NCBI GenBank assembly: GCA_910575105.1
Contig: CAJTDK010000020.1
Coordinates: 1 to 61,693 of the forward strand
Length of the DNA: 61,693 nucleotides
Source of the DNA: Lachnospiraceae bacterium
GTDB lineage: Bacteria; Bacillota; Clostridia; Lachnospirales; Lachnospiraceae
Reading direction: 5' to 3'
Numbering within the stretch: the stretch's first letter is position 1; each line of letters starts with the position of its first letter. This document shows positions 45,547-60,906 of this stretch, in pieces. A program made the position numbers and the translations under genes. Under the pieces are notes generated by a model. It had not been told where the DNA came from. It did no database searches and worked only from the letters and a program-made list of their open reading frames with translations.

Positions 45547-45969
45547 ATGTGGAATTATGAAAAAAGATTACAGTATCCGGTAAACATCACACAGACAAAT
45601 CCGAAGACCGCACAGGTGATCATCAGCCAGTTCGGCGGGCCTGACGGAGAGCTTGCGGCTTCCATGCGGTATCTGTCGCAGCGGTATACGATGCCTTATA
45701 ATGAAGTGACGGGGATATTGACTGATATAGGTACAGAAGAATTAGCCCACATGGAAATCATCTGCGCCATCGTCCACCAGCTTACCAGGGATCTCACCCC
45801 GGAGCAGATCGAAAAATCCGGCTTTGACAAATACTACGTGGACCACACCCTCGCCCTCTGGCCGCAGTCTGCAGGCGGCACCCCCTGGACGGCCACTTAC
45901 TTCCAGTCCAAGGGCGACCCAATCACAGATCTGCATGAGGATATGGCAGCAGATGCTGCGAGCATGTAA
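45547..45969 (+). CDS. cotJC: cotJC 5' part (interrupted gene; intact coding ends at 45953)
   Basis: The first 135 codons of the spore-coat manganese-catalase-like CotJC, with three of five expected metal ligands: Glu35 (DGELAASMR), Glu65 and His68 (EELAHME). At 45953 the frame enters foreign sequence and stops after a few codons (DAASM), giving a 140-residue truncated protein. The missing 68 codons lie at 60702-60906. Joining at the GA dinucleotide restores EDMAAEQKAR and gives a 203-residue protein. It ends the cotJA-cotJB-cotJC operon. As it stands the product lacks Glu136 and His169 and should be inactive. Confidence 0.93.
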   Translation: MWNYEKRLQYPVNITQTNPKTAQVIISQFGGPDGELAASMRYLSQRYTMPYNEVTGILTDIGTEELAHMEIICAIVHQLTRDLTPEQIEKSGFDKYYVDHTLALWPQSAGGTPWTATYFQSKGDPITDLHEDMAADAASM

Positions 45970-45976
45970 AAACAAC
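45930..45976 (+). other. attL of the cotJC element
   Basis: The left junction. The crossover dinucleotide GA is at 45952-45953. To its right lie TGCTGCG, AGCA and the arm TGTAAAAACAAC (45965-45976), which mirror the right junction. Confidence 0.85.
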
Positions 45977-46047
45977 AGCCAGACTCAAAAATCCTTTACC
46001 GGACAGCAAAACTTAAAAAACCACTGCTCATTCCGCATCCGGCAGCC

Positions 46048-47610
46048 TCAAAAATTCCAATAGATTTTGACTGGAACATCGCGGGTACCAGGAATCCGCC
46101 TGCCCACAGCAATATGATCAATCAGCTTTTCAACCATCTCCCTGTCCAGCTTCTCAACCTTAGTATACTGCTCAATAAGCTGGCGGCGGCTGTTTCCCCT
46201 CTGCTCATTTTCCCTGAGGGCAGCAAGTTGCTCCCCGGCTCCTTCCGCCAATCTCTCAAGCCGCTCCTTCTCGGCAGAAAAATCCCTGGAAAATTCCAGA
46301 TATTCCCTTTCCGATATAATGCCCCTGACCTTATCCAGATAAAGTTCACGGATACAACCGGCATATTCGCCGGCCTTTTTCCGGTACGCGGCAGCATCTT
46401 TTTTCAGCCGCTGTTCCTTTTCCTCCAGGTTATGATGGAATTCAATCTTTTCCTCCAATTCATCCTGGTCAAGATATTCGTCAAAAAAACGATTGAGCGC
46501 AGAGACTACCGCCTGCGCAAGCCCCGTCACCGAGATAAAAGCGCCTGCGCAAGCCTCCTTTGACACATGACGGCTGGAGCAGGTAAGATAGCGCCGCCCG
46601 TCGGACATTTTACGGGAGCGCATGGTGCAGCCGCAGTTGATACAGCAGGCTTTGCGGGCAAACAGGCCGATCTCTCCGGTGGAGAAAGGTTTTGTCCTCT
46701 CCGCCATAAGTACCTGGACCTTTTCCCACAATTCGCGGCTGATCACCGGCTCGTGGGTGCCTTCCACAACGTACCACTGCTCCTTCGGCCGCGGCCTGTT
46801 CTGCTTCGTCTTATAAGACACACTCCCGTACCTGCCCTGCACCATATTCCCGATATAGATCTCATTGCTCAGCATCCTGGAAATTGCGGAATAACTCCAG
46901 AGGGTGCTCTGCTTCTTTTCCGGCTGCCGGTACCTCAGCCCCTGCCGCCGTTTGTACTCGGTAGGATTCGGCACTCCCCGGTCGTTCAGCATCCGGGCGA
47001 TCGCAGTCTTTCCATACCCCCGGGAAAATAAAGTGAACACTTCCCTGACGATTCCCGCCGCCTCCTCGTCAATGAGCAAATGTCCCTTCTGCCCGGGGTC
47101 TTTTTTATAGCCATATAATGCAAACGCCCCGATATGCAGCCCGTTTTTCCGGCGGTTTGTCAAAACGCTCTTGATATTTTCAGACATATCCTCCAGATAC
47201 CACTCATTGACAAGACCGTTAATCTGCCGGGACTTTTTATTTCCCTTGTTGGCCGTATCTGCATGGTCAACGACACTGACAAAACGGACTCCCCATACCG
47301 GAAACAGACCGTGGATATATTTTTCCACAAGCTCCAGCTCGCGGGTAAAGCGGGACTGGGTCTTGCAGAGGACCACGTCTATTTTCCGCTGCTGCGCATC
47401 CGACAACAGTTTCTTAAATCCCGGGCGGTTCCGGTCCGCGCCCGCGTAATCATCGTCACTGTAAATTTGATAAATCTCCCAGCCCTGTTCCAATGCATAC
47501 CGGATCAGCATGGACTTTTGATTCTGAATACTGCCCGAATCATCTGTCCCGGATTGCTTATTTTTGTCTTCTTCAGATAAACGGCAATAAATCCCTACCT
47601 TCAGCGCCAT
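46048..47610 (-). CDS. Large serine recombinase
   Basis: A 520-residue site-specific recombinase. The catalytic domain (about 1-150) has the serine in YCRLSEED (Ser12) and the arginine region TQSRFTREL. A recombinase domain follows (about 165-300, PNPTEYKRRQGL). The zinc-ribbon Cys cluster (CCINCGCTMRS, then TCSSRHVSKEACAG) and a long C-terminal coiled coil (about 390-480) complete the large-serine-integrase architecture. Its 3' end points at cotJC and lies 95 bp from the left junction. It overlaps a 45-codon gene by one base (TGATG). It is the obvious candidate for integration and excision of the cotJC element. Confidence 0.93.
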   Translation of the reverse strand: MALKVGIYCRLSEEDKNKQSGTDDSGSIQNQKSMLIRYALEQGWEIYQIYSDDDYAGADRNRPGFKKLLSDAQQRKIDVVLCKTQSRFTRELELVEKYIHGLFPVWGVRFVSVVDHADTANKGNKKSRQINGLVNEWYLEDMSENIKSVLTNRRKNGLHIGAFALYGYKKDPGQKGHLLIDEEAAGIVREVFTLFSRGYGKTAIARMLNDRGVPNPTEYKRRQGLRYRQPEKKQSTLWSYSAISRMLSNEIYIGNMVQGRYGSVSYKTKQNRPRPKEQWYVVEGTHEPVISRELWEKVQVLMAERTKPFSTGEIGLFARKACCINCGCTMRSRKMSDGRRYLTCSSRHVSKEACAGAFISVTGLAQAVVSALNRFFDEYLDQDELEEKIEFHHNLEEKEQRLKKDAAAYRKKAGEYAGCIRELYLDKVRGIISEREYLEFSRDFSAEKERLERLAEGAGEQLAALRENEQRGNSRRQLIEQYTKVEKLDREMVEKLIDHIAVGRRIPGTRDVPVKIYWNF

Positions 47611-47747
47611 CAGCTGACAGCGGTACTCCCCTTATCCTTTTCATGCGGATTGGCCAGCCCGCCCCATCTTCTGGTAAATTCCTTCTTACGATTCTTTTCA
47701 TTGCCGCTTTTGAAGATGTCTGCACAGATTACCTGTGTCTCTTTCAT
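47610..47747 (-). CDS. Small protein coupled to the recombinase, candidate directionality factor
   Basis: A 45-residue basic protein (MKETQVICADIFKSGNEKNR, then KKEFTRRW) whose TGA overlaps the recombinase ATG. An AGAGGTGA precedes the start (an ATG one codon earlier at 47750 is possible). A homologous 46-codon gene lies at 55315-55455 upstream of a recombinase remnant, sharing TQVIC and RKKEFTRRW, so the pair is conserved. Small proteins encoded beside serine integrases can be recombination directionality factors; that function is an inference here. A hairpin (CTGCA/TGCAG, 47765-47785) lies upstream in both copies. Confidence 0.7.
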   Translation of the reverse strand: MKETQVICADIFKSGNEKNRKKEFTRRWGGLANPHEKDKGSTAVS

Positions 47748-47829
47748 CATGCAATCACCTCTTTCTGCACTAACAGCCTATGCAGCAACGCTTGTACCTT
47801 ATGTGATGACAAAAAGGTCTGAAAAGAAA

Positions 47830-49818
47830 TCATCTTTCATCCACAGGAATAAGCCTGCCTATCCGGCCGACATAGCTGCAGATCAGGTCTGCGGCAGCCT
47901 CCTCGCCCACCGATGCGTCAATACACAGCTCGTAGCCATGGGGATCGCCCCATTCCTTCCCGGAAACACTTTTGTAGTAGGCGCCTCTGGCGGCATCAGA
48001 CCGGGCAATGCTCTTTTTCGCCGCTTCCGGGCTGTCCCCATACATCTCCATTACCTTCTTCTCACGGTAGCTTTTGGGCGCATAGATAAAGATACGCACC
48101 ACATCCGGATAATTTTGCAGCACATAATCAGCCGAGCGCCCGATGATGACGCAGGAGCCCGCATCCGCAATCCGGCGGATCGCCTTTTCCTGCGCGGCGA
48201 TGGCACGCTTCACCGGGTCGGCCGTGAGGTAGAGTTCCTTCATAACGGCATTTTCATCGGAATTGATGCCGGAGATAAATTCCTCCGCCAGGCCGCTTTC
48301 CTGTGCAGCGACTGCCACCAGCTCTTTGTAATAGCAGGGAATGCCCAGCCGGGCGGCTGTTAGCTGGCCGATCCGTTTCCCGGCAGAGCCATGCTCCCTG
48401 GCAATCGTGATGATGGCTCCCTGCCGGGACGGCTGAATGACCGCCGCAGGCTCTCCGGCCTTAGTCCCGCGCCCTAATTCCTCCCATACCCGGATCATGA
48501 CAGCCCCAGTAGCCAGTACAGCCAGTATATCCGCAATAGGTGCGGCCCAGAAAATGCCCGTAACGCCCATGGGAACCGGAATCAGCAAGGAAAAAACGAT
48601 TAGCAGCACATCCCGCAGGACAGACAAAGGCGCGGCTGCCCTGGCCTTGCCGATAGACTGCAGAAAGATGGCGCAGACCTTCTGGGCGCAGGTGACCAGG
48701 ATAAGGGAAAGGTAGATCCGCAGGCAGAGCACGGCGAAACCAAAGTAGACCGGGTCGTCCGCCGAGCCGAACATCCGGATAAATACGCCGGGAAGAGCCT
48801 CGAAGAAAATTGTGCAGGCCAGGCCCACGATCACCGTCCACCGGATCATCAACCGCAAAAGCTCCCTCACCCGGCCATAATTTTTTGCACCATAGTTATA
48901 ACCCACGATCGGCTGCGCACCGGCGGCGATACCGATGGCAACGTTCAATACGATCTGGAAAAGCTTCATAATAACTACAAACGCCGCCAGAGGAATATCT
49001 GCACCATAGGGCGACCTGGCGCCGTACTTCACCAGCAGGATATTGTTGACTACGGTAATAATCACGATGGAAAGCTGTGTAAGCAGGCTGGACGTGCCCA
49101 GAGCCATCACCGGTTTCAAAAGGGCGATACTGGGCCGGAAACTGCCGGCGCTCACCCAGAACGTCTTCGCGCGCCTTAAATAAGCCGCACAGATCAAGAA
49201 GCTGACAAACTGCCCCAGAACCGTCGCCCAGGCCGCACCTTTGATCCCCATGTCAAGGACGAAGATTGCCACCGGATCGCCGATGATGTTGATGACCGCC
49301 CCAGTGAGCATGGCGGCCATGGCATACTTCGGGCTTCCGTCCGCCCGGATAATGGACGCCAGGGTATTCTGGGTCATGGCAAGGGGCATCATGGCGAAGA
49401 TGATCACACCGTAATCATGAGCCATCGAAAGATTAGCATCCGTTGCTCCGATCAGGAGCAGCAGGCCGTCCCCCCACAGATAGGCAACAGTGGTCACAGC
49501 CACGCCGGAGAAAAAGGAACCGAAGACTGCGCTGCCAACGCTCCTGTGGATCTCGTCAGTTTCCCCGCGGCCCAGAGAAACACTCAGTGCGGCCGCCGCC
49601 CCGTCGCCAAAGAACAGGCTCAACCCCCATCCTACTACCGTGATCGGAAAGATCACACCGGTGGCTGCATTTCCCAGATAGCCTACGCCGTTGCCCACAA
49701 AGATCTGGTCTACGATGTTATACAGACACGAAATAATAAGGGAACATATGCAGGGAACCGCGAACTGCAAAAGCAGCTTCCCCACTTTTTCTGTGCCAAG
49801 ATATTTACTATTTTCCAT
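47830..49818 (-). CDS. MATE efflux transporter fused to a cytidylate-kinase-like domain
   Basis: A 662-residue fusion. Residues about 1-450 form a MATE-family multidrug/cation antiporter with twelve helices (VPCICSLIISCLYNIVDQIF, SIIRADGSPKYAMAAMLTG). Residues about 465-662 match the cytidylate kinase-like family (Cytidylate_kin2): a P-loop-like AREHGSAGKRIG, then VIIGRSADYVLQ and RSDAARGAYYKSVSG. The join is continuous with no stop or frameshift. The kinase-like domain would be cytoplasmic. AAGGAGG precedes the ATG at 49818. The nucleotide specificity is unknown. Confidence 0.85.
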   Translation of the reverse strand: MENSKYLGTEKVGKLLLQFAVPCICSLIISCLYNIVDQIFVGNGVGYLGNAATGVIFPITVVGWGLSLFFGDGAAAALSVSLGRGETDEIHRSVGSAVFGSFFSGVAVTTVAYLWGDGLLLLIGATDANLSMAHDYGVIIFAMMPLAMTQNTLASIIRADGSPKYAMAAMLTGAVINIIGDPVAIFVLDMGIKGAAWATVLGQFVSFLICAAYLRRAKTFWVSAGSFRPSIALLKPVMALGTSSLLTQLSIVIITVVNNILLVKYGARSPYGADIPLAAFVVIMKLFQIVLNVAIGIAAGAQPIVGYNYGAKNYGRVRELLRLMIRWTVIVGLACTIFFEALPGVFIRMFGSADDPVYFGFAVLCLRIYLSLILVTCAQKVCAIFLQSIGKARAAAPLSVLRDVLLIVFSLLIPVPMGVTGIFWAAPIADILAVLATGAVMIRVWEELGRGTKAGEPAAVIQPSRQGAIITIAREHGSAGKRIGQLTAARLGIPCYYKELVAVAAQESGLAEEFISGINSDENAVMKELYLTADPVKRAIAAQEKAIRRIADAGSCVIIGRSADYVLQNYPDVVRIFIYAPKSYREKKVMEMYGDSPEAAKKSIARSDAARGAYYKSVSGKEWGDPHGYELCIDASVGEEAAADLICSYVGRIGRLIPVDER

Positions 49819-49932
49819 AAGTCCTCCTTCAATTTGCGCAAAAAAAGACACCTATAGCACCCATACCGTAATCAGATTTACGCGCGGTGCGCCACATGTG
49901 TCGTTGATTTTGCCTAATATAGTTTCTAGTAC

Positions 49933-49962
49933 ATTATAACTTTTTTCTCCTTTAGAAATCAA
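49933..49962 (-). promoter_or_regulatory. Promoter of the MATE fusion gene
   Basis: TTGATT and TATAAT with an 18-bp spacer on the minus strand, about 115 bp upstream of the start. The remaining bases of the 250-bp gap to the ATPase gene show no other gene. Confidence 0.55.
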
Positions 49963-50068
49963 AGGACATTTTCTACAAAAAACCGCAGAGTGACGTTCGG
50001 ATAAAATGCACAAAATCCTGCAAAAGGCTTATGCTAGTTATCTGGCCGGCAAAAAGTCCGGTCCCCGG

Positions 50069-52144
50069 CTAATCCAGCAGATTCTTCATGCTGTTTAAGC
50101 TGATCGCCAGCGTGGACGCATTATGCACGAACGCAGATACCGTGGGCTGTACCAGACCCCCGATCCCAAACAGTATCAGCCCCGAATTAATCCCGATAAT
50201 GCTAAAATAGTTCTTTCGGATCCGCACGGACAGCCGGTCACTAATGGATTTCAATGTCACAAGAGCGGACAGCCTGTCTGCGTCAATCGTAATTCCCGCA
50301 ACATCCCTGGCGATCTGCGCGCCGTCGCTGACAGCAATCCCCACATCCGCAGCCGAAAGCGCCGGCGAGTCATTCATGCCGTCTCCAACCATGACCACCT
50401 TCTTGCCCACTGCCTTTTCCTTTTCCACAAATGCCGCCTTATCCTCCGGCAGCACTTCAGAATAATACTCATCCACGCCGATCCTTGACGCAATAGTACG
50501 TGCCGTCCTCTCACTGTCCCCCGTCATCATAACGATCTTTTTAAAGCCCGCCTCTTTTAACGACGCGATAACCTCCCCGGCCTCCTCCCGCAATGGGTCT
50601 TCAATACAGATGACCGCGGCCAGCTTACCTTCAATCGCAAGATACAGGTGGGAATATTCCGCCGGAAGGCGCTCAAACATCTCCTGCATCCCCTCTGGCA
50701 CCCGGCAGCGCTCATCCTCAAACACAAAATGATAGCTCCCGATGATCACCTTTCTGCCGTCCACCACAGAGGATATCCCATGAGCCACAATATACTCTAC
50801 TTTAGAGTGCCTTTCTTCATGGACGATCCCCCGCTCCATGGCTGCCTGGACAACTGCCCTGGCCATAGAATGGGGAAAATGCTCTTCCAGACATGCCGCC
50901 AGCCCTAAAAGCCCATCCTCGCTTTCCGAAACAAATGGCACAATCTTTGCCACAACAGGATGCGCCTTCGTCACCGTCCCTGTCTTATCAAAAACAATCG
51001 TGTCCGCCTCTGCGATCCTTTCCAAATATTTCCCGCCTTTAACGGTAATCTGATATGTACCCGCTTCCCTGATCGCCGACAATACTGCGATCGGGATAGA
51101 CAGCTTCAGCGCGCAGGAAAAATCCACCATCAGCACGGACAGTGCCTTTGATGCATTTCCCGTCAGAAGATAGACTAAGGCTGCCCCAAACAGAGTATAG
51201 GGCACCAGCTTATCCGCCATCTGCAGAGCATTTCCTTCCATAGAAGATTTTAACCGCTCTGATTCCTCGATCATACGGACGATTTTTTCATATTTATTCG
51301 AACCGGACGTTTCTTTTACCTGGACAATCAATCCCCCTGCTTCCAGTACCGTCCCCGCATAGACATATCCTCCAGCTTCCTTTGGAACCGGCAATGCTTC
51401 CCCGGTTAAGGATGCCTGGCTGACTTCACCGCTCCCCTTAGTCACCACCCCGTCAAACGGGATGACGCTTCCCATGCGGATGACGATGGAATCGCCCTGC
51501 TTTACCTGATCTGTATCCACCGGGACCTCCCTGCCATCCTTCAGAAGCCATACCTTGCTTATATTCAGCGACATGCTCCTTGCCAGGTCATCCACGGATT
51601 TCTTGTGCGTCCACTCCTCCAGGATCTCACCGATATCGAGCAGGAACATAACAGAGCCTGCCGTATTAATATTGCCCCTGAGCAGCGATACCGCAATTGC
51701 CGTCCCATCCAGGACAGACACATCGACCTTCCCCTTCCCCAATGCCCGGATACCTTTCCAGATATATCTCACCGACTTGCCGATCACGATAACATTCCTG
51801 GCCGGCACAGGCAAAAACAGCTTACTTCCAATCCTCAATACGACCTTCCTGACGATCTTATCCCAGTACCTCCGGCTCGTCTCCCTCCCCGAATTCTGCC
51901 AGACATGCTCTGGCACCGCCGGATCATGGAAGGAAAACCACTTAAGGATGCGAATGATCTCCTCCCTCGTTCCGTCATAGCAGATCGCTGCATCCTGATT
52001 TCTTTCATACACCTTTACCGCTGTGACAGATTCCTGGTTCAAAAGATAATACTGGAGTATATCTGCCTCCTTCAGTGACATCCGCCCGCAGGCGAAACGG
52101 ACCCTCATACGCCCCTTTATCTCATGTACAATCTTAAATTTCAT
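50069..52144 (-). CDS. Heavy-metal P1B-type ATPase with SCAL in place of CPC
   Basis: A 691-residue metal-transporting ATPase. It starts with an HMA_2-like domain lacking CxxC (MKFKIVHEIKGRMRVRF), then has the actuator motif SLTGEALPVP (TGEA at 247-250), phosphorylation site FDKTGT (386-390) and MVGDGMNDSPAL. The membrane metal motif that is CPC or CPx in most relatives reads DFSCALKLS (343-346). The metal cannot be named; linkage to a Fur-like regulator suggests iron, zinc or manganese. It is the last gene of the operon starting at the palindromic promoter at 53424. Confidence 0.88.
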   Translation of the reverse strand: MKFKIVHEIKGRMRVRFACGRMSLKEADILQYYLLNQESVTAVKVYERNQDAAICYDGTREEIIRILKWFSFHDPAVPEHVWQNSGRETSRRYWDKIVRKVVLRIGSKLFLPVPARNVIVIGKSVRYIWKGIRALGKGKVDVSVLDGTAIAVSLLRGNINTAGSVMFLLDIGEILEEWTHKKSVDDLARSMSLNISKVWLLKDGREVPVDTDQVKQGDSIVIRMGSVIPFDGVVTKGSGEVSQASLTGEALPVPKEAGGYVYAGTVLEAGGLIVQVKETSGSNKYEKIVRMIEESERLKSSMEGNALQMADKLVPYTLFGAALVYLLTGNASKALSVLMVDFSCALKLSIPIAVLSAIREAGTYQITVKGGKYLERIAEADTIVFDKTGTVTKAHPVVAKIVPFVSESEDGLLGLAACLEEHFPHSMARAVVQAAMERGIVHEERHSKVEYIVAHGISSVVDGRKVIIGSYHFVFEDERCRVPEGMQEMFERLPAEYSHLYLAIEGKLAAVICIEDPLREEAGEVIASLKEAGFKKIVMMTGDSERTARTIASRIGVDEYYSEVLPEDKAAFVEKEKAVGKKVVMVGDGMNDSPALSAADVGIAVSDGAQIARDVAGITIDADRLSALVTLKSISDRLSVRIRKNYFSIIGINSGLILFGIGGLVQPTVSAFVHNASTLAISLNSMKNLLD

Positions 52145-52164
52145 CTAAACCTGACCTCCCCTCG

Positions 52165-52194
52165 CAAAAAACACCTGCAGTATCCCGCAGGTGT
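52165..52194 (-). terminator. Hairpin between the DUF6110 and ATPase genes
   Basis: ACACCTGC/GCAGGTGT stem with an 8-nt loop followed by TTTTTTGCG on the minus strand. It may attenuate rather than fully end transcription into the ATPase gene. Confidence 0.7.
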
Positions 52195-52220
52195 CCTGAT
52201 CCTCCATCCATGACAGCATT

Positions 52221-52532
52221 TTATTCTGTGCTGTCTGTTTCCTTGCATTCTTCATCCTCAGAACCGCTTTCATCCTCAAATTCCGTCTCTCCTGCAGCTC
52301 TCTCTTCATTAAGCTGCACAGCTTCCGCATAGATATCCTCCGCATTCTCCTGCACGCATGCAGCCGTCTTCAGGACACATTCCTTCGCCCGGAGCACCGC
52401 AGCCGTACAATGGGTATATACCTTTTTCGCATCCTTGCTGGATAAGATCTTAATGCCTGCCGTACCAAACAGCACCCCTGCTGCAAAAATCCCTGTTTTT
52501 TTCCCGTCAAGCTTACACAACACATCCATCAT
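52221..52532 (-). CDS. DUF6110 family protein
   Basis: A 103-residue protein with a hydrophobic N-terminal segment (GIFAAGVLFGTAGIKILSS), a Lys/Cys-containing middle (THCTAAVLRAKECVLKTAACV) and an acidic tail. It matches the small DUF6110 family often encoded beside clostridial metal P1B ATPases. No catalytic motif; possibly an accessory membrane protein. It lies between the 26-codon gene and the ATPase gene. Confidence 0.7.
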   Translation of the reverse strand: MMDVLCKLDGKKTGIFAAGVLFGTAGIKILSSKDAKKVYTHCTAAVLRAKECVLKTAACVQENAEDIYAEAVQLNEERAAGETEFEDESGSEDEECKETDSTE

Positions 52533-52551
52533 ACCAATATTCCTCCCTCGT

Positions 52552-52632
52552 CTATTTATGATTGTAACCTGTGTAGAATACCATAACCATACAGATCACC
52601 GCAGCCCACGCCCAAAATCTGTGCTTTTTCAT
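52552..52632 (-). CDS. 26-residue membrane peptide
   Basis: MKKHRFWAWAAVICMVMVFY plus a short tail: a basic N-terminus, one hydrophobic helix, then YNHK. AGGAGG lies seven bases before the ATG. It is in line with the metal operon and 19 bp upstream of the DUF6110 gene. Such small membrane peptides accompany DUF6110/ATPase operons; function unknown. Confidence 0.65.
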   Translation of the reverse strand: MKKHRFWAWAAVICMVMVFYTGYNHK

Positions 52633-52777: not shown

Positions 52778-53239
52778 TTAAGGATCATTCTTTAGGAATG
52801 GTTCCAGTGTAATGCTGACAATCTGCTGTTCATCCGCATATCCGCAGGCTCTCAGCCCTTCCAGGACAACCATGAAACAGCGCTGGGCAGAAAGGCAGAA
52901 AACAGTATGGTCATCCAGCTCGATGACACATGCATTTTTCCTGCCAGAATCCATGCAGCAGGAGATTTTATACATATTTCCCCTGCGGATCGCCCCTATT
53001 TCTTCCAGAAGGTTGATCATCCGGTATACGGTAGCCGCGCCTATACTGCTGTCCTCTTTTTTCGCCTTATAGTAGATCTCCTTGCAGCTGGCGCATTCTT
53101 CCTGTAAGATCACATCCAGAAGCATCTGCCTCTGCTTTGTGATCCTGTATTTCTTTTCCCTTAGCCGTTTAAGGATCAGCTCCTTTTTCATTTTTGTACT
53201 GCAGAAGCCCTCCGGCCTCTTTTTCTTCCTATATGCCAT
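52778..53239 (-). CDS. Fur family transcriptional regulator
   Basis: A 153-residue Fur-like repressor. The winged-helix domain (about 25-95) includes YRITKQRQMLLDVIL and AATVYRMINLLEEIGAI. The C-terminal dimerisation half keeps a histidine (ELDDHTVFCL) but lacks the typical HHDHxxC and CxxC motifs, so metal sensing may be altered or served by the scattered cysteines (SCCMDSG). GGGAGGGAG precedes the ATG. It probably regulates the metal operon it belongs to. Confidence 0.85.
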   Translation of the reverse strand: MAYRKKKRPEGFCSTKMKKELILKRLREKKYRITKQRQMLLDVILQEECASCKEIYYKAKKEDSSIGAATVYRMINLLEEIGAIRRGNMYKISCCMDSGRKNACVIELDDHTVFCLSAQRCFMVVLEGLRACGYADEQQIVSITLEPFLKNDP

Positions 53240-53414: not shown

Positions 53415-53423
53415 AGTAAATCT

Positions 53424-53464: not shown

Positions 53465-53469
53465 TTTCC

Positions 53470-54196: not shown

Positions 54197-54202
54197 ACCC
54201 CT

Positions 54203-54871
54203 TCACCGCACATTCCCATGGTGCCTGTGGCCATCACGGCGTCCATGCCCATGGCCGCCGTAATGACCGTGATGATGCCCGTGTTCGTGACCATTCCTAT
54301 CCCCGCCGTAACGCTCTCTCCAATCCGCACAGACTCTTTCCAGCAGCGACAGCAATTGCCGGCTCTCCTCTTCCGAGAGACAGGAAAACATCTCTTCATG
54401 CCGTTCTTGGCGCTGCACCAGCGCTTTTGCTGCAAGCTCCCTGCCGCTTCCGGTCAGGAGGAGATCTGTTATCCTACGGTCGGCTTTATTCTTTGTGCGG
54501 ACGATCAGTCCTGCATTCTCAAGCTTAGAAAGGATTTCACTGGCCGAGCCCGGCATGATTCCCAAACGCTCTGTCAGGTCCCTCTGCGTCATCCCTTCTG
54601 ACTCATTCAGGATGATCAGGATACGCTTCTGGCTTGCTTTTCCCTCATACATCTGGCGCATCATATGACTTAAATCCCGCAGATTGATGATCAGCTTATC
54701 ATTCCTGTCTGCGTTGTGGTCATACGCTGTACCTCTCTCATGGCCATGCTCTTTTGCATGCCGCTGCTTTTGAATGTTCCCGGTGCGGCCATATTCCTCC
54801 CCTCTGCCGCAGCGCGGCTCACTCAGATCACAGTGCCTTTCGCATCCTGGGCATATATTTTTTTCTGTCAT
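54203..54871 (-). CDS. MarR family regulator with Cys-rich head and His-rich tail
   Basis: A 222-residue regulator. Residues 1-25 hold four or five cysteines (CPGCERHCDLSEPRCGRG). The MarR winged helix spans about 60-175 (RDLTERLGIMPGSASEIL, RTKNKADRRITDLLLTGSG). The C-terminal 35 residues are very rich in His and Gly (HEHGHHHGHYGGHGHGRRD). Both ends could bind metal ions such as nickel, zinc or cobalt. The promoter upstream is flanked by AGGTACCT palindromes, the probable operator. No target gene is evident in the same operon. Confidence 0.85.
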   Translation of the reverse strand: MTEKNICPGCERHCDLSEPRCGRGEEYGRTGNIQKQRHAKEHGHERGTAYDHNADRNDKLIINLRDLSHMMRQMYEGKASQKRILIILNESEGMTQRDLTERLGIMPGSASEILSKLENAGLIVRTKNKADRRITDLLLTGSGRELAAKALVQRQERHEEMFSCLSEEESRQLLSLLERVCADWRERYGGDRNGHEHGHHHGHYGGHGHGRRDGHRHHGNVR

Positions 54872-54891
54872 AAATCAATCCTCCTTTTCAT

Positions 54892-54939
54892 TAGGTACCT
54901 TGATTATATCCCGATCCCACTATTTTGTCAAGGTACCTA
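54892..54939 (-). promoter_or_regulatory. Perfect-consensus promoter between two operator halves
   Basis: On the minus strand TTGACA (54926-54931) and TATAAT (54903-54908) are spaced by 17 bp, a full consensus. TAGGTACCTTGA (54892-54903) and TCAAGGTACCTA (54928-54939) are exact inverted repeats covering both promoter elements. Probable autoregulation by the MarR protein. Confidence 0.8.
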
Positions 54940-55007
54940 GAAATATTTTTATGTTGAACACCCAATGGATTGCTGGTCACGGTGTGAACGTTAATCGCCA
55001 GATCCCC

Positions 55008-55196
55008 TTAGATTCTCCGGTGGTGTATGTCCGCTTTGGCAGGAATGTACAGCTTTTGTACACTTCCCGCAGCTGAATCACAACCCGAACTACAGTCTGA
55101 ACCACAGCCTGAACCGCAATCCAAATCCCGGACCGGAAGCGGAAAAGCGATGAAAAACAGCCCCTGAAGCGGATCTTTCCACTCCAGGAGCTGCCA
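55008..55196 (-). pseudogene. 3' remnant of a Cys-rich protein gene
   Basis: An open frame without a start, ending DCGSGCGSDCSSGC, then QKLYIPAKADIHHRRI and stop. The GSGC repeats are typical of a metal-binding tail. Upstream residues are not recognisable. It may be the end of a metal-related gene truncated during rearrangement. Confidence 0.35.
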
Positions 55197-55247
55197 TTAC
55201 GCTTATGTCCAACCCTGACACCCTGTTAAATTATACCAATCTGGATT

Positions 55248-55314
55248 CTACATATCACGCCTGTTTCTGTCCTCCTCTGATAAGCAGCAATAAATCCCTG
55301 CCTTCGGTATACTG
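55248..55314 (-). pseudogene. N-terminal remnant of a second serine recombinase
   Basis: After the small gene at 55315, the sequence reads IPKAGIYCCLSEEDRNRRDM then stop, matching the first codons of the intact recombinase (VGIYCRLSEED). The expected start ATG reads ACA and only about 20 codons remain. Confidence 0.75.
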
Positions 55315-55455
55315 TCAGCCGGCACTGTTATATCCTTCATCCTTTTCCCGCTGATTGACCAGTTCGATCCATCTTCTGGTAAATTCCTTCTTTCGCTCTT
55401 TTTTATCGACGCTTTTGAAGACGCTTTCACAGATCACCTGCGTTCCTTTTGCCAT
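55315..55455 (-). CDS. Second copy of the small recombinase-linked protein
   Basis: A 46-residue homologue of the 47610-47747 product, starting MAKGTQVICESVFKSVDKKE and sharing RKKEFTRRW. The upstream region (hairpin CTGCA/TGCAG and TACAAGCGTT) is also conserved. It precedes a dead recombinase, so it is either a relic or still expressed and able to act on the intact recombinase. Confidence 0.6.
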   Translation of the reverse strand: MAKGTQVICESVFKSVDKKERKKEFTRRWIELVNQREKDEGYNSAG

Positions 55456-55512
55456 TCAATCACCCCTGCTTTCTGCATTAACAGCCTATGCAGAAACGCT
55501 TGTACGTTATGT

Positions 55513-55570
55513 GTATCATGTTCTTACGGAATGCGCAGCCAGTGCGTATTCCTGACCCATGAACAGTAAC
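55513..55570 (+). mobile_element. Family-1 repeat, copy D, right-end fragment
   Basis: GTATCATGTTCTTACGG through CCTGACCCATGAACAGTAAC matches the last 58 bp of copies A and B. The left part is missing; it abuts the upstream region of the small recombinase-linked gene. Confidence 0.8.
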
Positions 55571-55761
55571 CTTAGTACGTCATTGCATTATTCGTAATAA
55601 TTTAAAATATTTACACGTTGGTTTCTATATGATAAAATGGCACTTAAGTTTACGCAAATTATGTTTCAAAAAAACAAAAAATATCTTCCCTCTTTGCACT
55701 TCACTTCAACTATATAATCCAAATTATTTTCTAACATCTTTAGACTAATAGACTGCCCTGC
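55571..55761. other. AT-rich intergenic stretch, no gene seen
   Basis: About 190 bp of AT-rich sequence with several weak -10-like hexamers (for example TATGATAAAAT near 55630) but no convincing promoter, gene or repeat. Confidence 0.5.
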
Positions 55762-56082
55762 ATGCAGATACAGGAAGAAGTTTATTTCTGTCAGGTCACG
55801 CACCGAACTTGGGATGCTATCCTCCATGCCATAAGGGAAGCGCACAAGGACGATACGAACAGTACGGCGGACGGCTCCAATGCCATGAAACTAATCAAAG
55901 ACGCAAAGAAGGCACTGGCTGTGCCGGGTTCCTATCTGGATGTGTTCATCGCCCTTATGTGTACGCAGCTTCAAATCCGATATGAGAAGCTGTCGGAGCA
56001 GGAGCGTATGGTTTTGAAGAATATTATGAAGAAAACTCCGGCATATAAGGATTCCCCGTTGAGCAGGATGAAGCGGAGATAA
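55762..56082 (+). CDS. Hypothetical protein, probably a mobile-element remnant
   Basis: A 106-residue helical, basic protein (SNAMKLIKDAKKALAVPGSY, LSEQERMVLKNIMKKTPAYK). No ribosome binding site lies before the ATG, so the 5' end may be lost. I do not recognise the family. It is flanked by AT-rich sequence and an opposite-strand AraC gene. Confidence 0.45.
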   Translation: MQIQEEVYFCQVTHRTWDAILHAIREAHKDDTNSTADGSNAMKLIKDAKKALAVPGSYLDVFIALMCTQLQIRYEKLSEQERMVLKNIMKKTPAYKDSPLSRMKRR

Positions 56083-56197
56083 AGAAATACCGTTGCTTGG
56101 GTTTTTTATCCATGCAACGGCATTTTGTGGTAGTTCTAATTCAGTTGAGAAGCGAACTATCAAGAAATTGAAAAGGATTCACCAAGATTTCTGGTTA

Positions 56198-57022
56198 TCA
56201 ATTCTTTTCTATAGGTATCCAGATTTCGCTGTAATTCATATCTTTCGTATACATCTCAATATTATAATTACCTGCAAGCTTATATACCTTACAGGAGGGA
56301 AGCCACTCGCTCCATATTTTTGTATTCACATCCTGTAAAGATTTCGGCAATGCTCCATAACAGGGAAATACTGCCCATGTCCCGGCTGGAATTACTTTTG
56401 TTTCCAATCCCTCAGGAACTTCGCTTGCCGGACTGTAATTATCAGCTATCAAATATTCAAAGTTTTGACCTTCACTGTCCATGCAGATCCCATACATTCC
56501 ACATACGATTTTCCCATTCTCGCTTTTCATATGTTCCTGCCAAAACTCAGGAATTTTTTGATAGGAAGTTTCCGAATTGAATTTACGAGAAACTCCCATA
56601 ACTGTGAACTGTTCCTTTTCCACAATTTTATACTCTAACATAGTACCACCCTTCAATGTAAGTTTTATTTTCAGCGGAGCAACAGAATTTAGGCTGCAAT
56701 TCTTTTCTCTTGCCTTGGAAGGCGTTATCCCATGAAATTTAGTGAATGCTTTTGCAAAGCTGTCAGGCGAACTGTATCCATACTTCAGTGCAACATCAAG
56801 CACCTTGATATCGGATGAACAAAGTTCTTGGGCAGCTAGAGTCAGACGGCGGTTTTTGATATACTCCCCAACTGTAAATCCACATAATACATTGAATATT
56901 TTTTGAAAGTAGAAACTTGACACAAATGCTTTGCTTGCGATTTCACTTACATCAATATCTTCGGTCAGATGCTCTTCAATGTAACAAATTGCATTACGTA
57001 TACCGCTATTCCAACTATTCAT
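56198..57022 (-). CDS. AraC family regulator with GyrI-like domain
   Basis: A 274-residue regulator. Two helix-turn-helix motifs are in the N-terminal 105 residues (VSEIASKAFVSSFYFQKIF, VLDVALKYGYSSPDSFAKAF). The C-terminal half (about 118-274, EYKIVEKEQFTVMGVSRKF) is a GyrI/Rob-like small-molecule-binding domain. Such proteins often activate multidrug efflux. AAGGAG precedes the ATG at 57022; the frame is open to 57151 without similarity. Confidence 0.88.
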   Translation of the reverse strand: MNSWNSGIRNAICYIEEHLTEDIDVSEIASKAFVSSFYFQKIFNVLCGFTVGEYIKNRRLTLAAQELCSSDIKVLDVALKYGYSSPDSFAKAFTKFHGITPSKAREKNCSLNSVAPLKIKLTLKGGTMLEYKIVEKEQFTVMGVSRKFNSETSYQKIPEFWQEHMKSENGKIVCGMYGICMDSEGQNFEYLIADNYSPASEVPEGLETKVIPAGTWAVFPCYGALPKSLQDVNTKIWSEWLPSCKVYKLAGNYNIEMYTKDMNYSEIWIPIEKN

Positions 57023-57162
57023 GGGTATCCTTCTCCTTCCTGTGTCACTGTAATTATATTGTACAGGCAAAATCTTAAATTTTCCCGATATTTTGTGTTC
57101 TCTAGTGTAGGATGGCTCCATTATACTACAATAACTTTTCAGAATATTCAAAGCTACAGGGT

Positions 57163-57297
57163 ATGTCCATAATTCCCCTGTCAGGATAAGGGAGCTGTAC
57201 CGTGCCGGGTGTTCTTGCTTGAGATAGTCCCGGTGTAGTCGCCTACCAGAATATAATCAATGCCGTTCTCTGTGATTCTTTCTTTCAGTATTTCCAT
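57163..57297 (-). pseudogene. tnpV remnant with internal deletion
   Basis: MEILKERITENGIDYILVGD matches the start of TnpV, a small protein of conjugative/mobilisable transposons. After VGDY, an internal deletion shifts the frame; the expected DYLKQEHPARYSSLILTGEL follows in another frame, and the end is cut off. Marks a decayed transposon. Confidence 0.7.
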
Positions 57298-57529
57298 TGT
57301 CGTTCCCTTCTGTAGTGGAAGGCTCGTCACTGACCAGCTCAATCACGTCCATAATTCCACAATCCAGCGTTTCGCAGATTCGTGCCAGCGTGTCCATGCT
57401 GATATGTTTCCCCTCTTTGCCCATGTTGGCTATCATATTTGTGGTCAGGCCAGCAGCAAGCCTTAAATCTTCTTTCCTCATGTTGCGCTCTATCAGTGTG
57501 TGCCAGAGCGGTTTGTAGCTGATGTGCAT
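57257..57529 (-). CDS. XRE family helix-turn-helix regulator
   Basis: A 90-residue Cro/C1-type protein (HISYKPLWHTLIERNMRKED, then AAGLTTNMIANMGK and ISMDTLARICETLDCGIMDV). The compact length fits the YozG-like group commonly upstream of tnpV in transposons, and it overlaps the tnpV remnant here by 41 bases as in those elements. It appears intact. Confidence 0.8.
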   Translation of the reverse strand: MHISYKPLWHTLIERNMRKEDLRLAAGLTTNMIANMGKEGKHISMDTLARICETLDCGIMDVIELVSDEPSTTEGNDNGNTERKNHRERH

Positions 57530-57670
57530 GTTTATCCCTGCCTTTCTGCCCCGGATGGGCGTTTATCCCCATTATATCAGGATTCTTGCTAACTCACAAA
57601 TATTTCTTGACGGTATCGCCGATTTCGTCTGGATTGTACTTTTCCTTTCCTCTTTTGCTTACCTCTAATT

Positions 57671-57817
57671 AGCCGCGACCTGCTTGACAGGCTAAAGGAC
57701 GACACTTATCAACTGATCATTCTGCCATACTGCCCAGATGAGGACAGCTTTTCCTCTGCCCGCCTGTGCGAGGAGCAGCTCGGGAAATTCAAAGGGGTCT
57801 TCAGTGCTCCCTTTTAG
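57671..57817 (+). pseudogene. 3' fragment of an unidentified gene
   Basis: An open frame reading RDLLDRLKDDTYQLIILPYC, PDEDSFSSARLCEEQLGKFK and a short tail before TAG. It looks like real protein sequence but has no start and no known match I can name. It could be a truncated mobile-element gene. Confidence 0.3.
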
Positions 57818-57836
57818 CCGGCGTACGGCCAAAGCT

Positions 57837-58295
57837 TTACACGGTCTTCTCAAAGGCAATATCCCCGCGGATGTATTCATAATCGTCAAGCTGTATCTCC
57901 TGAAATCCGAACTTTTCATAGATATGCAGGGCCGCCTTAAGCTTCCGGTTAGAAATGATAAACACTCTTGCCGCGCCGTGTCCAATGGCCCACTGCATAG
58001 CCGCCTCAAATACTGCGCTCCCGCACCCTTTATGGGGACGGTGCTTGTTGGAAGCCAGCTTGCAGATCTCCCATGTCGCATCCTGCATATGCTTTGCCAT
58101 ACACACCGCAAGAACTTCATCCTCCTCAATGGCAAAATAGATCATCGCGCCGTTTTTGATATCCTCTTCAATATTTTCAAACGTCTCCTTATCCTCTTTT
58201 TCCAAAAAACCGAAATTGTCAACAATCCAATCTGTATTGTACTCTATAAATTTGTCCTTGTATTTTGGATCATACGGTATCACTTTCATCTTCAT
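57837..58295 (-). CDS. GNAT family N-acetyltransferase
   Basis: A 152-residue acetyltransferase. Motif A is present as KHRPHKGCGSAVFEAAMQWA, with motif B in ALHIYEKFGFQEIQ. The substrate is unknown. The start at 58295 (ATG after AGGAAAGGA) follows the MarR gene stop by 15 bases, so the two are one operon under a MarR-type operator. Confidence 0.85.
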   Translation of the reverse strand: MKMKVIPYDPKYKDKFIEYNTDWIVDNFGFLEKEDKETFENIEEDIKNGAMIYFAIEEDEVLAVCMAKHMQDATWEICKLASNKHRPHKGCGSAVFEAAMQWAIGHGAARVFIISNRKLKAALHIYEKFGFQEIQLDDYEYIRGDIAFEKTV

Positions 58296-58310
58296 CAATT
58301 CCTTTCCTCT

Positions 58311-58769
58311 TTATTGCCGGACGCCAGCTTGGGCATCCTCCGGAACCGCCGCCAATATTCTTTCGATAGTTTCCATCGCTTCTGCCAGCCGGACATACTC
58401 TTCCTTTGGCACATGCCGGATGGCTTCCCTGATCCCCTGATTGGCCTTATCAGTCAGTTCTTTTGTCATGTGTTTTCCTTTTTCCGTCAGCCGGATCTTG
58501 TATGACCGAGCGTCAGTCTTTGACCTTTCTCTCTCAAGAAGCTCTTCCTTCTCAAACCGCTTAATGATCCGGCTCATGTATCCTTTATCGATACGAAGCT
58601 CCCTGATAATATCATCCGCAGCACATTCCTTCCGTCTATACAATTCGTATAAGACACGGGACTCTGTCATGGAATAATCGGAATGGAGATAACTGCTCTC
58701 ATAAAGATTCATGACCGGCAGATAAAATCGGTTAAATCTTCTAATCTTCAGAACGATGTCGTCATTCAT
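58311..58769 (-). CDS. MarR family transcriptional regulator
   Basis: A 152-residue winged-helix repressor (CAADDIIRELRIDKGYMSRI, RERSKTDARSYKIRLTEKGK). It precedes the acetyltransferase gene and probably controls this two-gene operon through two GTTG-N7-CAAC sites at its promoter. Confidence 0.88.
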   Translation of the reverse strand: MNDDIVLKIRRFNRFYLPVMNLYESSYLHSDYSMTESRVLYELYRRKECAADDIIRELRIDKGYMSRIIKRFEKEELLERERSKTDARSYKIRLTEKGKHMTKELTDKANQGIREAIRHVPKEEYVRLAEAMETIERILAAVPEDAQAGVRQ

Positions 58770-58785
58770 CCTGCCCCCCTATTTA

Positions 58786-58834
58786 GTTGCTTTTGTCAAC
58801 CATAATCATAGCCTCAACAGTTGCTTTTGTCAAC
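58786..58834 (-). promoter_or_regulatory. MarR/acetyltransferase promoter with tandem operators
   Basis: TTGACA (58828-58833) and TATGAT (58805-58810) are spaced by 17 bp on the minus strand. GTTGACAAAAGCAAC occurs twice (58820-58834 and 58786-58800), once over the -35 and once at the start region. Each unit is an imperfect palindrome. Confidence 0.75.
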
Positions 58835-58877
58835 TATTTTCGTAAAGGGCGAACAGTCACCCCATAATCTCCTTGTC

Positions 58878-59117
58878 CTATGCAAACAGCGCTCCCGCTT
58901 TTTCGTATAATTCATGCAGGCGGCCATATGCCTCAATTGACGGCTCCGCGCCATAAGTTACACCCCAGTCGTTGAGCTGCGGCGCAGCTATGATCATATC
59001 CGGCTCATGGTCCTTTTCCGTAAAGCCGAGTTCCTCCGGCATAAGATTGCCCCGTCTCCTGGAAATACAGCCCCCATATCCCGGCAGGGTGAAATAAAGC
59101 GCAAATGCATCAGCCAT
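58878..59117 (-). pseudogene. C-terminal remnant of a probable alpha/beta hydrolase
   Basis: 79 codons with GFTEKDHEPDMIIAAPQLND followed by WGVTYGAEPSIEAYGRLHEL. The ending resembles some small hydrolase or esterase families, but the catalytic parts are absent and the first 20 residues look like junction sequence. Remnant. Confidence 0.4.
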
Positions 59118-59234
59118 CCCTCCTCGTCATGAATCTGTATTTCCAAAACATGCTGTTAAAAGCTTAAGAGCCCCAGAGTTATGTTCATTCACACCAGCCT
59201 GAATTCCATAACTCTGCGACCCTGTATCATCTTG

Positions 59235-59486
59235 CTATCTTAACACCGTATTCTCAATATAATCCCTTATCTCACGGCTATCCTTGGTAAACAGCCCGTC
59301 GTCTACCTGCGCCCCCTTCGCGCAGTCCCGGATAAATGCTACGGACTGGCGGTACTGGAAGGTATCCATGGATGCCGACTGAGATACGGGATAAATCCTT
59401 TTCCCGGTCAGATCATAGCTTTCCAAAAATATCCCTACGGTCATCGACGCCATATGCCACCATATTGCGTGACCAGATTGATACAA
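59235..59486 (-). pseudogene. Truncated flavodoxin
   Basis: The C-terminal half of a long-chain flavodoxin: AIWWHMASMTVGIFLESYDL (normally GYPIWWG) through DDGLFTKDSREIRDYIENTV. The N-terminal FMN phosphate loop is missing; sequence upstream (59487-59618) is unrelated. Not functional as it stands. Confidence 0.7.
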
Positions 59487-59618
59487 TCTTTGAATGGGTG
59501 CTATCGTTTTTTACATTTACCGCAAATGCACCAAAATCAACACTTTTCAGAAAGGCAGATGCACCCATGCATGGGAGGCTATCGCTATTTTTTGCACCCA
59601 AAAGATTCTACTGTTTTA

Positions 59619-60218
59619 TCACTCCATTCGATCTTTTTCCGTAATTTCTCTAATAACCCTGCACGGATTGCCCGCAGCAAGGCTGTGTGGCGGTATATTC
59701 CTTGTTACGACACTGCCAGCCCCAATAACAGAGCCTTCGCCGATTGTTACGCCTCCACAAACAACTACGTTAGCTGCTAGCCAACAATCTTTTTCAATAA
59801 TAATAGGCTTCGCATATTCAAGGTTATACATACTGCCATCTTCACGCATCCTGCAGTTCCGCTCTTTAGGGAGCAACGGATGCATAGGTGTAGCAATAGT
59901 GACATTTGGACCAATCATCACATTATCTCCAATGTGGACGGGACAGACATCCAGACAGGTAAAGTTAAAATTTGCCCCACTGTATTTTCCGAAATATGTA
60001 TTGCAGCCGTAATCAAAGTAGACTGGTGCCTGTAGTCCAGGTATTTCCTGAGTATTCGAAAGCAATTCTTTGAGGATTTCATACTGCTTTTCACTTTCAT
60101 CCTCATCAGTCAAATTATAGCGTCTTGCCAGTTTACGTGCTTTCAGGCGCAATTGATCCAACTCAGGATCAGATGGATCATAAAGCTGTCCTGCAAGCAT
60201 TTTTTCTTTTTCAGTCAT
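59619..60218 (-). CDS. maa: Sugar O-acetyltransferase (maltose/galactoside type)
   Basis: A 199-residue hexapeptide-repeat acetyltransferase. The Mac domain is at 4-58 (EKMLAGQLYDPSDPELDQLR), then the left-handed beta helix with NFNFTCLDVCPVHIGDNVMI, the catalytic histidine in ATPMHPLL and the C-terminal IGAGSVVTRNIPPHSLAAGN. It transfers acetyl from acetyl-CoA to a sugar. Complete and preceded by AGAGGTG. It stands alone within decayed neighbours. Confidence 0.9.
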   Translation of the reverse strand: MTEKEKMLAGQLYDPSDPELDQLRLKARKLARRYNLTDEDESEKQYEILKELLSNTQEIPGLQAPVYFDYGCNTYFGKYSGANFNFTCLDVCPVHIGDNVMIGPNVTIATPMHPLLPKERNCRMREDGSMYNLEYAKPIIIEKDCWLAANVVVCGGVTIGEGSVIGAGSVVTRNIPPHSLAAGNPCRVIREITEKDRME

Positions 60219-60273
60219 TGACTACACCTCTTTCATGATAATCTTGCTTTGTTGGTCATACCCGACATTAAAA

Positions 60274-60558
60274 TTATACCTCAATTCTTTGCAGATTTCC
60301 ACGCAAAGTAACAGTTGGCAGGCAATCCTTACTGTACTGGATCAGGTACTTGGCATCCCGGTACAGAGATTTTCCCGCCGCAGTCACAAAAAGCCCCCGG
60401 TGCGTCCGCTCAAATAACCGCACAGTAAGGCTTTCCTCCAGAGAATTGATTTGCTTGATGACCGCCGGCGAAGTGTTATACATCTTCTCCGCAGCCTTGC
60501 TGAAGCTCCCGGAATCCACCACACAGATAAACGTCTCAAGCTGAGGATTATACATCAT
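60274..60558 (-). pseudogene. LysR family regulator, truncated
   Basis: 94 codons with the complete N-terminal helix-turn-helix (SGSFSKAAEKMYNTSPAVIK, QINSLEESLTVRLFERTHRG), then a short tail (LPTVTLRGNLQRIEV). The roughly 200-residue effector domain is absent. GGAGAG lies upstream of the ATG at 60558. It may bind DNA but cannot sense an effector. Confidence 0.75.
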
Positions 60559-60676
60559 ACTGGCATCTCTCCTATCTTTATCACAGCATATGCATATCCG
60601 CACATGCTGTGTAAGCTTTTATAAATGCAAGAATGAATTCATCCAAAAGATCAGCTTCACTGTTACCGTTTTGCAG

Positions 60677-60720
60677 GTTGTTCTTACAAAATCGCAGCAG
60701 AGCAGAAAGCGCGCACAACC
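60677..60720 (+). other. attR of the cotJC element
   Basis: The right junction. The arm GTTGTTCTTACA (60677-60688), a 4-bp gap AAAT, CGCAGCA (60693-60699), then the GA dinucleotide at 60700-60701, after which cotJC resumes. Confidence 0.85.
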
Positions 60721-60906
60721 TACGACAACATCCTGCGGCTGGTAAAGGATCCGGAGATCTGCGAGCCGATCAAGTTCTTAAGGGCGCGTGAGATCGTGCA
60801 CTATCAGAGATTTGGTGAATCTTTAAGGATCGTCCAGGATCACTTAGACAGCAAGAATTTCTATGCCATCAATCCGGAATTCGATCTGAATCCGAACTGC
60901 AAATAA
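60702..60906 (+). CDS. cotJC: cotJC 3' part (interrupted gene)
   Basis: 68 codons completing CotJC: QKARTTYDNILRLVKDPE, then LRAREIVHYQRFGESL with Glu166 and His169 (metal ligands in reconstituted numbering), and YAINPEFDLNPNC plus Lys before TAA. It has no start or ribosome binding site of its own. Fused after codon 135 of the 5' part, the reading frame continues without any stop, and codon 136 becomes GAG (Glu136, a further metal ligand) rather than GAT. No mutation is visible in it. Confidence 0.92.

Follow-up and report, generated by a model that had tools for sequence, protein, structure and literature searches.

The locus described here raises the question of why a spore-coat gene should lie in two pieces, and whether it is lost or is put together again when the cell sporulates. 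The sequence is a contig of 61,693 nt (CAJTDK010000020.1, assembly GCA_910575105.1, Lachnospiraceae bacterium), hereafter the window, in which cotJC is interrupted within its Glu136 codon by a 14,748-bp element carrying a large serine recombinase (LSR). The initial annotation had compared the element to skin, a sporulation-specific intervening element, and those predictions of a skin-like reading that were tested at the level of sequence were borne out: an in-frame junction, an adjoining LSR, intact relatives, a single copy, constrained halves and sigma-E-type promoters. We conclude that this mobile element is very probably excised by its LSR under sigma-E control in the mother cell, which would restore cotJC. 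The observations comprise the split gene, attachment-like sites, an intact LSR, promoter-like sequences, constraint on both halves and recurrence at the same codon in many genera. Given an element with an LSR and switches that look spore-specific, and the same gene cut in many gut spore-formers, cotJC is probably joined only in sporulating cells.

The interrupted gene

Split gene and recombination region of the element (window coordinates):
45547..45953, + strand: cotJC 5' half, up to the GA of the Glu136 codon (PF05067 match, 2.1e-36)
45952..45953, + strand: putative GA crossover core, left junction (junction comparison)
45954..45976, + strand: element-side attachment arm of 23 nt, putative attP right arm (19 of 23 positions palindromic with 60677-60699 around GA)
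46048..47610, - strand: intact LSR of 520 aa with Resolvase, Recombinase, Zn ribbon and DUF4368 domains (Pfam); 3' end 95 bp from the junction
47610..47750, - strand: candidate directionality factor of 46 aa, copy 1 of the small open reading frame (ORF); its stop codon overlaps the start of the LSR; WIELIN motif degraded (translation, relatives)
47775..47802, - strand: sigma-E-type promoter, ATA (47802-47800), 17 nt, CATA (47782-47779) (motif)
55248..55310 (approximate), - strand: N-terminal remnant of a second LSR (frame similar to the LSR start)
55315..55455, - strand: small ORF copy 2, 46 aa, conserved motif intact (FTRRWIELVNQ) (sequence)
55483..55510, - strand: second sigma-E-type promoter, ATA (55510-55508), 17 nt, CATA (55490-55487) (motif)
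60677..60699, + strand: element-side attachment arm, putative attP left arm (palindrome with 45954-45976)
60700..60701, + strand: putative GA crossover core, right junction (junction comparison)
60702..60906, + strand: cotJC 3' half, remainder of codon 136 to the stop (PF05067 match, 8.2e-8)

Joined, the halves give 612 nt, or 203 codons plus a stop, with no internal stop. Both flanks share GCAGCAGA, and the exact break is uncertain within 8 nt. We place it at the GA that ends this shared stretch, the first two bases of the Glu136 codon, because the palindromic element arms are centred on GA and because left junctions turn into element DNA after it. GA is also the crossover dinucleotide of Tn4451 and Tn5397, whose recombinases are of the TndX/TnpX type, and the window LSR has the Resolvase, Recombinase and DUF4368 make-up of such enzymes.

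Unjoined, the 5' half encodes 140 aa before its first stop, at 45969, and residues 137-203 are absent from the product, while the 3' half holds no ORF of at least 50 aa with a start codon in its frame. The annotation had pointed out that the first product would lack two metal ligands, and indeed the Glu136 codon is broken and His169 is missing. Both residues align with conserved positions in solved manganese (Mn) catalases (Alr3090, 6j42/4r42, E ~2e-24), and we take them, along with Glu35, Glu65 and His68, to be the metal ligands of the Mn-catalase fold.

The host genome (4.24 Mb in 86 contigs, 99.96% complete) was searched for a second intact cotJC with the PF05067 profile, and the search returned the two halves only. 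The gene content of the host suggests a spore-former, with a strong full-length SpoIVA match and several sporulation-type sigma factors, two of them in the window at about 24-27 kb. The best match to the sigK model lies elsewhere in the genome as a single uninterrupted frame; no sigma factor passed the cut-off of that model, and assigning individual factors as sigE, sigG or sigK is a matter of inference.

Recurrence at codon 136

Among the named genomes of 84,980 species, 393 relatives of the window LSR were found, and the best 80 were analysed. The LSR 3' end lies less than 200 bp from the codon-136 junction in 69 of the 80, and a cotJC piece (E up to 0.01) is present at 77 loci, the exceptions being L028, L038 and L048. 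Hosts include Lachnospiraceae, Oscillospiraceae, Caproiciproducens, Anaerotignum and Longicatena. Among commensal isolates the arrangement is present in Lachnospiraceae bacterium 3-2, Sporofaciens musculi, Roseburia faecis M72 and Clostridium fessum. The LSRs of two Blautia (L030 and L032) are identical, and those of a Roseburia metagenome-assembled genome (L033) and a Hungatella (L038) nearly so, which indicates recent transfer. Chance juxtaposition or an assembly error can be ruled out, as the identical junction is seen across many genera. Ten relatives of the window LSR are present in IMG/VR.

Junctions were compared after removal of 11 duplicate loci and of L044 and L063, whose alignments overran the break. 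Among the rows kept, three come from a genome already represented (L010/L041, L165/L026 and L146/L090). All 46 left-half and all 61 right-half rows have GA at phase 1 of codon 136, in agreement with the annotated fusion point, although in the right halves this is expected anyway because all 61 keep Glu. In 44 of the 46 left halves codon 136 has turned to Asp, and the bases that follow are element DNA. The empty site predicted for related genomes was found in every uninterrupted cotJC gene of the sample (28/28), with Glu136 in an unbroken frame. Elements of unlike cargo have similar sides, namely GTTGTTCTTATATGATTGCAGCA, GA and TGGTGCAATCATATAAGAACAAC or a close variant, and these paired palindromic arms around GA have the appearance expected of a serine recombinase attP. 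Both orientations occur: among 80 codon-136 LSR rows (a few genomes counted twice) the LSR points toward the 5' half in 32, toward the 3' half in 45 and otherwise in 3.

Three loci of this set merit separate mention. L048 has an attP-like junction at the LSR locus, which suggests tandem elements. Complete attP-like sequences follow the LSR in L027, where they lie within the cotJC gap, and in L048, and suggest tandem or composite elements. In L028 (11551 onward, Holdemanella biformis) an LSR of the codon-136 clade lies at GCACCA-GA in a gene that by eye resembles the IID component of the mannose phosphotransferase system (PTS), a probable secondary site of the clade.

A small reading frame with a sigma-E-type promoter

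Upstream of the LSR, 73 of the 80 loci have a conserved small ORF (about 47 aa, consensus CxSVFKxGExTTxKxxFTxKWIELINxxEKNK), a count that excludes the window's copy 1, which has lost the search motif. The median dN/dS (ratio of nonsynonymous to synonymous substitution rates) of this ORF is 0.36 (289 pairs). The pattern ATA-N17-CATA precedes the small ORF in 64 of the 73, compared with a mean of 1.0 and a maximum of 4 in 200 shuffles; the spacing of 17 stands out, and at least two unlike spacer sequences occur within the same frame. A stricter pattern, ATA-N17-CATAnnnT less than 500 bp upstream of the LSR, was found in 62 of 73 loci versus none of 22 LSRs that lie outside cotJC in the genus (51 matches, 30 with loci, minus 4 at cotJC and 4 short of upstream DNA). 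These counts are not independent because the elements are related. In Clostridioides difficile (C. difficile), a -35 ATA marks sigma-E promoters, while sigma-K promoters have AC (PMC3789822).

The same promoter frame is associated with other small ORFs. LSRs at codons 62-63 of cotJC, another site of interruption, have a different small ORF and the same promoter frame in 7 of the 12 cases examined, and the codon-174 LSR of L016 has a third kind of small ORF with the same layout. The pattern suggests to us that mother-cell control has been recruited more than once.

The window itself has two copies of the arrangement. Copy 2 of the small ORF has its own promoter and only an LSR remnant downstream, and the window element is likely a composite of two elements. 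The survival of this copy after the loss of its LSR is a hint that the small ORF is required.

Between the small ORF and the LSR, a TATAAT-like box is found in 49 of 73 codon-136 elements (a loose pattern, with no control). In many of these elements an inverted repeat was noticed by eye around the box, reminiscent of those described upstream of the LSR in the C. difficile skin (PMC5025042).

Prevalence of interrupted cotJC and constraint on its halves

Near-full-length cotJC was found in none of the six genomes of the genus, two of which are only 77% and 89% complete. Of 150 Lachnospiraceae genomes, 99 have a cotJC match; 65 of these have a near-full-length copy, taken as a match better than 1e-41 (table read by eye), and 34 do not. 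As a control, the SpoIVA ATPase domain gave 109 matches in the same 150 genomes, 105 of them strong and 104 of these full length, and all 34 genomes without near-full-length cotJC have a strong SpoIVA match. Setting aside G033 (L178), which has a real cotJC frameshift and no element, and G112, which has only a weak match, 32 remain, and in 24 of them an LSR ORF lies less than 2 kb from the break (some LSR ORFs are cut by contig ends). In a class-wide scan PF05067 was detected in 193 of 293 genomes, 47 of them without a match better than 1e-41, judged by match strength alone. One genome, G053 (L143), has the 3' part of cotJC (codons 59-200) twice, 3.5 kb apart.

The separated halves are mostly open. 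Of the 61 right-half rows, two have a stop downstream of codon 136 (L085 at codon 199 and L082 at codon 187, of 203), and one of the 46 left-half rows is interrupted by a stop (L167, codon 8). For the other sites of interruption, right pieces that begin at codons 57-68 contain a stop in a single case out of 30 (L140) and the 22 left pieces contain none; among 20 right pieces beginning at codons 10-38 only L063 has one, beyond that locus's own codon-136 break. The dN/dS of 3' halves is 0.163 in split genes (109 pairs) versus 0.204 in intact genes (12 pairs), and that of 5' halves 0.175 (97 pairs) versus 0.135 (15 pairs); as dS mostly exceeds 1, these values mean at most that there is no visible relaxation. 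To that extent the split halves appear as constrained as intact genes, and a simple pseudogene is ruled out for most loci.

Proposed excision in the mother cell and alternative explanations

We propose the following sequence of events. In vegetative cells cotJC would be off and the element would stay in place. In the mother cell sigma-E would turn on the small ORF, a candidate directionality factor, along with the LSR; the LSR would recombine the two junctions at GA, and the element would exit as a circle, leaving an intact cotJC. The mother cell dies and the forespore would retain the element, so that little would be lost by element or host. From the arrangement of the locus we infer the use of the promoters by sigma-E, the role of the small ORF, excision and a working CotJC.

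Several results weigh against this proposal. Neither a joined cotJC nor an excised circle was observed, and an attP-like pattern representing free circles had no match in IMG/VR, 184 loci and 397 genomes of the family, a weak search because the pattern does not match the attP of the window element itself and failed to pick up the attP-like stretches of L027 and L048. No LSR was seen in the retrieved DNA next to 8 of the 32 breaks (G004, G036, G052, G084, G098, G132, G139 and G148; both ends were examined for G084, one end for the other seven). The small ORFs match no known family, and the copy next to the window LSR has lost part of its motif. Nine of the 73 small ORFs are without the exact promoter motif, as are the remaining five LSRs at codons 62-63, and no consistent sigma-E-type promoter was found at codon 35 (9 LSRs) or codons 65-68 (2 LSRs), where L015 carries one with a spacing of 16. 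Constraint, moreover, is weak evidence, since most pairs have a dS above 1 and the insertions may be recent.

One alternative is selfish insertion without programmed excision, in which the LSRs would simply take as attB the best-conserved parts of a gene that the host can do without, and carriers would have no functional cotJC. The same gene is often targeted by distantly related LSRs (PMC10083194), coat catalase mutants of C. difficile have no significant coat defect, as cited in PMC11222575, and an LSR of the codon-136 clade sits in the PTS-like gene of Holdemanella biformis. We nevertheless regard this explanation as improbable: the cotJC halves seldom decay and have dN/dS like that of intact genes, and the sigma-E-type promoter at cotJC-borne LSRs is absent at the 22 others of the genus. 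Ordinary excision at any growth phase, as in the life cycle of an integrative conjugative or mobilizable element, would make the link with sporulation incidental. The recent transfer among Blautia, Roseburia and Hungatella and the TATAAT-like box fit such a life cycle, yet no named conjugation or phage structural family is among the 25 most frequent in 90 cargo ORFs of small elements (many PHROGs matches are nameless), and the promoter contrast between LSRs at and away from cotJC speaks against excision independent of growth phase; we consider it very improbable.

A further possibility is compatible with excision in the mother cell, namely that the element is a switch that benefits the host and is kept since it blocks early CotJC synthesis. 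The lack of near-full-length cotJC in all six genomes of the genus points in this direction, a host benefit has been proposed for gin (PMC5595907), and deletion of the C. difficile skin leads to premature sigma-K activity and an altered spore surface (PMC5025042). On the other hand, unlike LSRs occupy the same site within the genus (the window LSR and that of G001 are 71% identical), which suggests turnover, and 65 of the 99 cotJC-positive genomes of the family have a near-full-length gene. We think a benefit of this kind unlikely.

Comparison with known intervening elements

The locus has the structural features of a skin-like element: an in-frame break, a recombinase near one end, a short attachment core with inverted-repeat arms, and an empty site in relatives. 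In the C. difficile skin, which splits sigK, the LSR CD1231 is constitutive and the excision factor, the recombination directionality factor CD1234, has a sigma-E promoter (PMC5025042). SPbeta in spsM of Bacillus subtilis pairs an LSR (SprA) with a 58-aa factor (SprB) under a mother-cell promoter and rebuilds a spore-surface gene (PMC4191935). An LSR present in growing cells and a small mother-cell-specific excision factor is thus the tested layout of SPbeta and likewise of the C. difficile skin (PMC4191935, PMC5025042), and by their anatomy the cotJC elements would work in the same way. Like skin, the window element carries an LSR, splits a mother-cell gene and has a small candidate factor with a sigma-E-type promoter; like SPbeta, it combines an LSR and a small ORF with a putative mother-cell promoter inside a spore-coat gene. 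Unlike skin, the target is cotJC rather than sigK, the small ORF is directly upstream of the LSR, the cotJC elements often have other cargo, and several LSR clades and sites occur per gene. Unlike SPbeta, which is an active prophage, the window element yielded no phage structural gene in our scans, and its small proteins match no known family.

Two other elements are similar in part. The gin element in gerE of Bacillus cereus (GirC/GirX) has non-phage cargo, an LSR with an accessory factor and an inverted-repeat attachment site (PMC5595907), all of which recall the cotJC elements; unlike them, it has three recombinase genes and one reported site. The yin element in yabG of Clostridium botulinum, also in a coat-related sporulation gene, is excised as a circle (PMC10747680); unlike the cotJC elements, it is prophage-like and is there reported in a single isolate. 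The prophage phi027 of C. difficile was considered as a precedent and rejected because it lies beside a cotJC homologue, not within it (PMC11222575). The DUF4368 make-up of the window LSR is that of TndX/TnpX-type LSRs; unlike that clade, described as multi-targeting (PMC10083194), the window LSR branch is almost confined to one cotJC codon, the junction at which 69 of its 80 best relatives end.

The interrupted sporulation genes named in PMC10747680 are only a handful, namely sigK, spsM, spoVFB, gerE and yabG. Our literature search, which left out most subscription papers and preprints, found no account of an interruption of cotJC or another Mn-catalase gene, though the supplementary target table of PMC10083194 may list cotJC. 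The cotJC elements are a new, widespread variant of sporulation gene-intervening elements. With about a third of the sampled cotJC-positive Lachnospiraceae lacking a near-full-length gene, the coat catalase of gut bacteria may depend on DNA excision, and annotation may label cotJC broken in many species where it is merely interrupted. The elements constitute a replicated natural experiment on the preference of mobile elements for mother-cell genes, and a resource of LSRs specific for cotJC, of the conserved attP-like sites that go with them, and of putative directionality factors shorter than 70 aa.

Other target sites in cotJC

Other elements break cotJC near codons 32-36, 62-63, 65-68 and 173-176. 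By alignment, the break sites are at or near the conserved Glu35, Glu65, His68, Glu136 and His169 of the Mn-catalase fold. In a tree of the LSRs with 28 randomly drawn codon-136 LSRs and that of the window (deep order unsure from long branches), the 11 codon-35 LSRs form a single clade (support 100/100), while the codon-174 LSRs (two rows and one unassigned) and the codon-136 LSRs each form their own. Those labelled s65 fall into two clades, one fitting junctions at codons 62-63 and the other junctions a few codons on. The gene is a hotspot along its whole length, hit at about five places by LSRs of at least five clades.

As many as 23 of the 80 loci are broken at two or three sites (a few of these breaks may be contig ends); in the clearest case, G001, cotJC is in three pieces on one contig, spread over 38 kb. 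Elements with both cotJC ends in the locus (27) are 2.9-17.8 kb long. In 25 small elements (90 of 111 ORFs scanned) the commonest cargo is two-component systems, ATP-binding cassette (ABC) and multidrug and toxic compound extrusion (MATE) transporters, and sigma factors. The top 25 families of either library include none that is named for phage structure or transfer, many PHROGs matches being nameless. By contrast, the elements of 38.8-38.9 kb at codons 65-68 in G042 and G121 are prophages, judged by their combined gene content: in 44 of their 71 ORFs, those that were scanned, portal, terminase and tail genes were detected between the two.

We consider it somewhat more probable than the opposite that at least five LSR clades, in prophages and in small cargo elements, have each settled on conserved codons near metal-binding residues, which would make cotJC the commonest programmed DNA rearrangement known in spore-formers, with at least two clades having sigma-E-driven excision factors of their own kind and some hosts needing two recombinases to rebuild a three-piece gene.

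Three consecutive LSR genes were seen in two species of the genus (G000:C27:9130-13844 and G002:C66:576-5290); in G002 a cotJC piece lies on the same contig, about 28 kb off.

Cargo of the window element and neighbouring genes

The scanned cargo of the window element consists of transporters, enzymes and regulators without a phage structural gene (some small ORFs were unscanned). Together with the two ORFs before cotJC, which are presumably cotJA and cotJB, the remaining features are:
44966..45277, + strand: presumed cotJA, first gene in the cotJABC operon (ORF from the ATG at 44966; listed with an upstream TTG start)
45265..45543, + strand: presumed cotJB (ORF)
47830..49851, - strand: MATE transporter fused to a cytidylate-kinase-like domain (Pfam, NCBIfam)
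50069..52144, - strand: heavy-metal P-type ATPase (Pfam, NCBIfam)
52778..53239, - strand: Fur-family regulator (Pfam)
54203..54871, - strand: MarR-family regulator (Pfam)
56198..57151, - strand: AraC-type regulator with GyrI-like/Cass2 domain (Pfam)
57837..58298, - strand: GNAT acetyltransferase (Pfam)
58311..58769, - strand: MarR-family regulator (Pfam)
59619..60218, - strand: maltose acetyltransferase-like protein (Pfam)
60274..60603, - strand: LysR-type regulator, N-terminal piece (NCBIfam)

Upstream of the cotJ operon, an ORF at 43904-44548 is transposase-like by eye.

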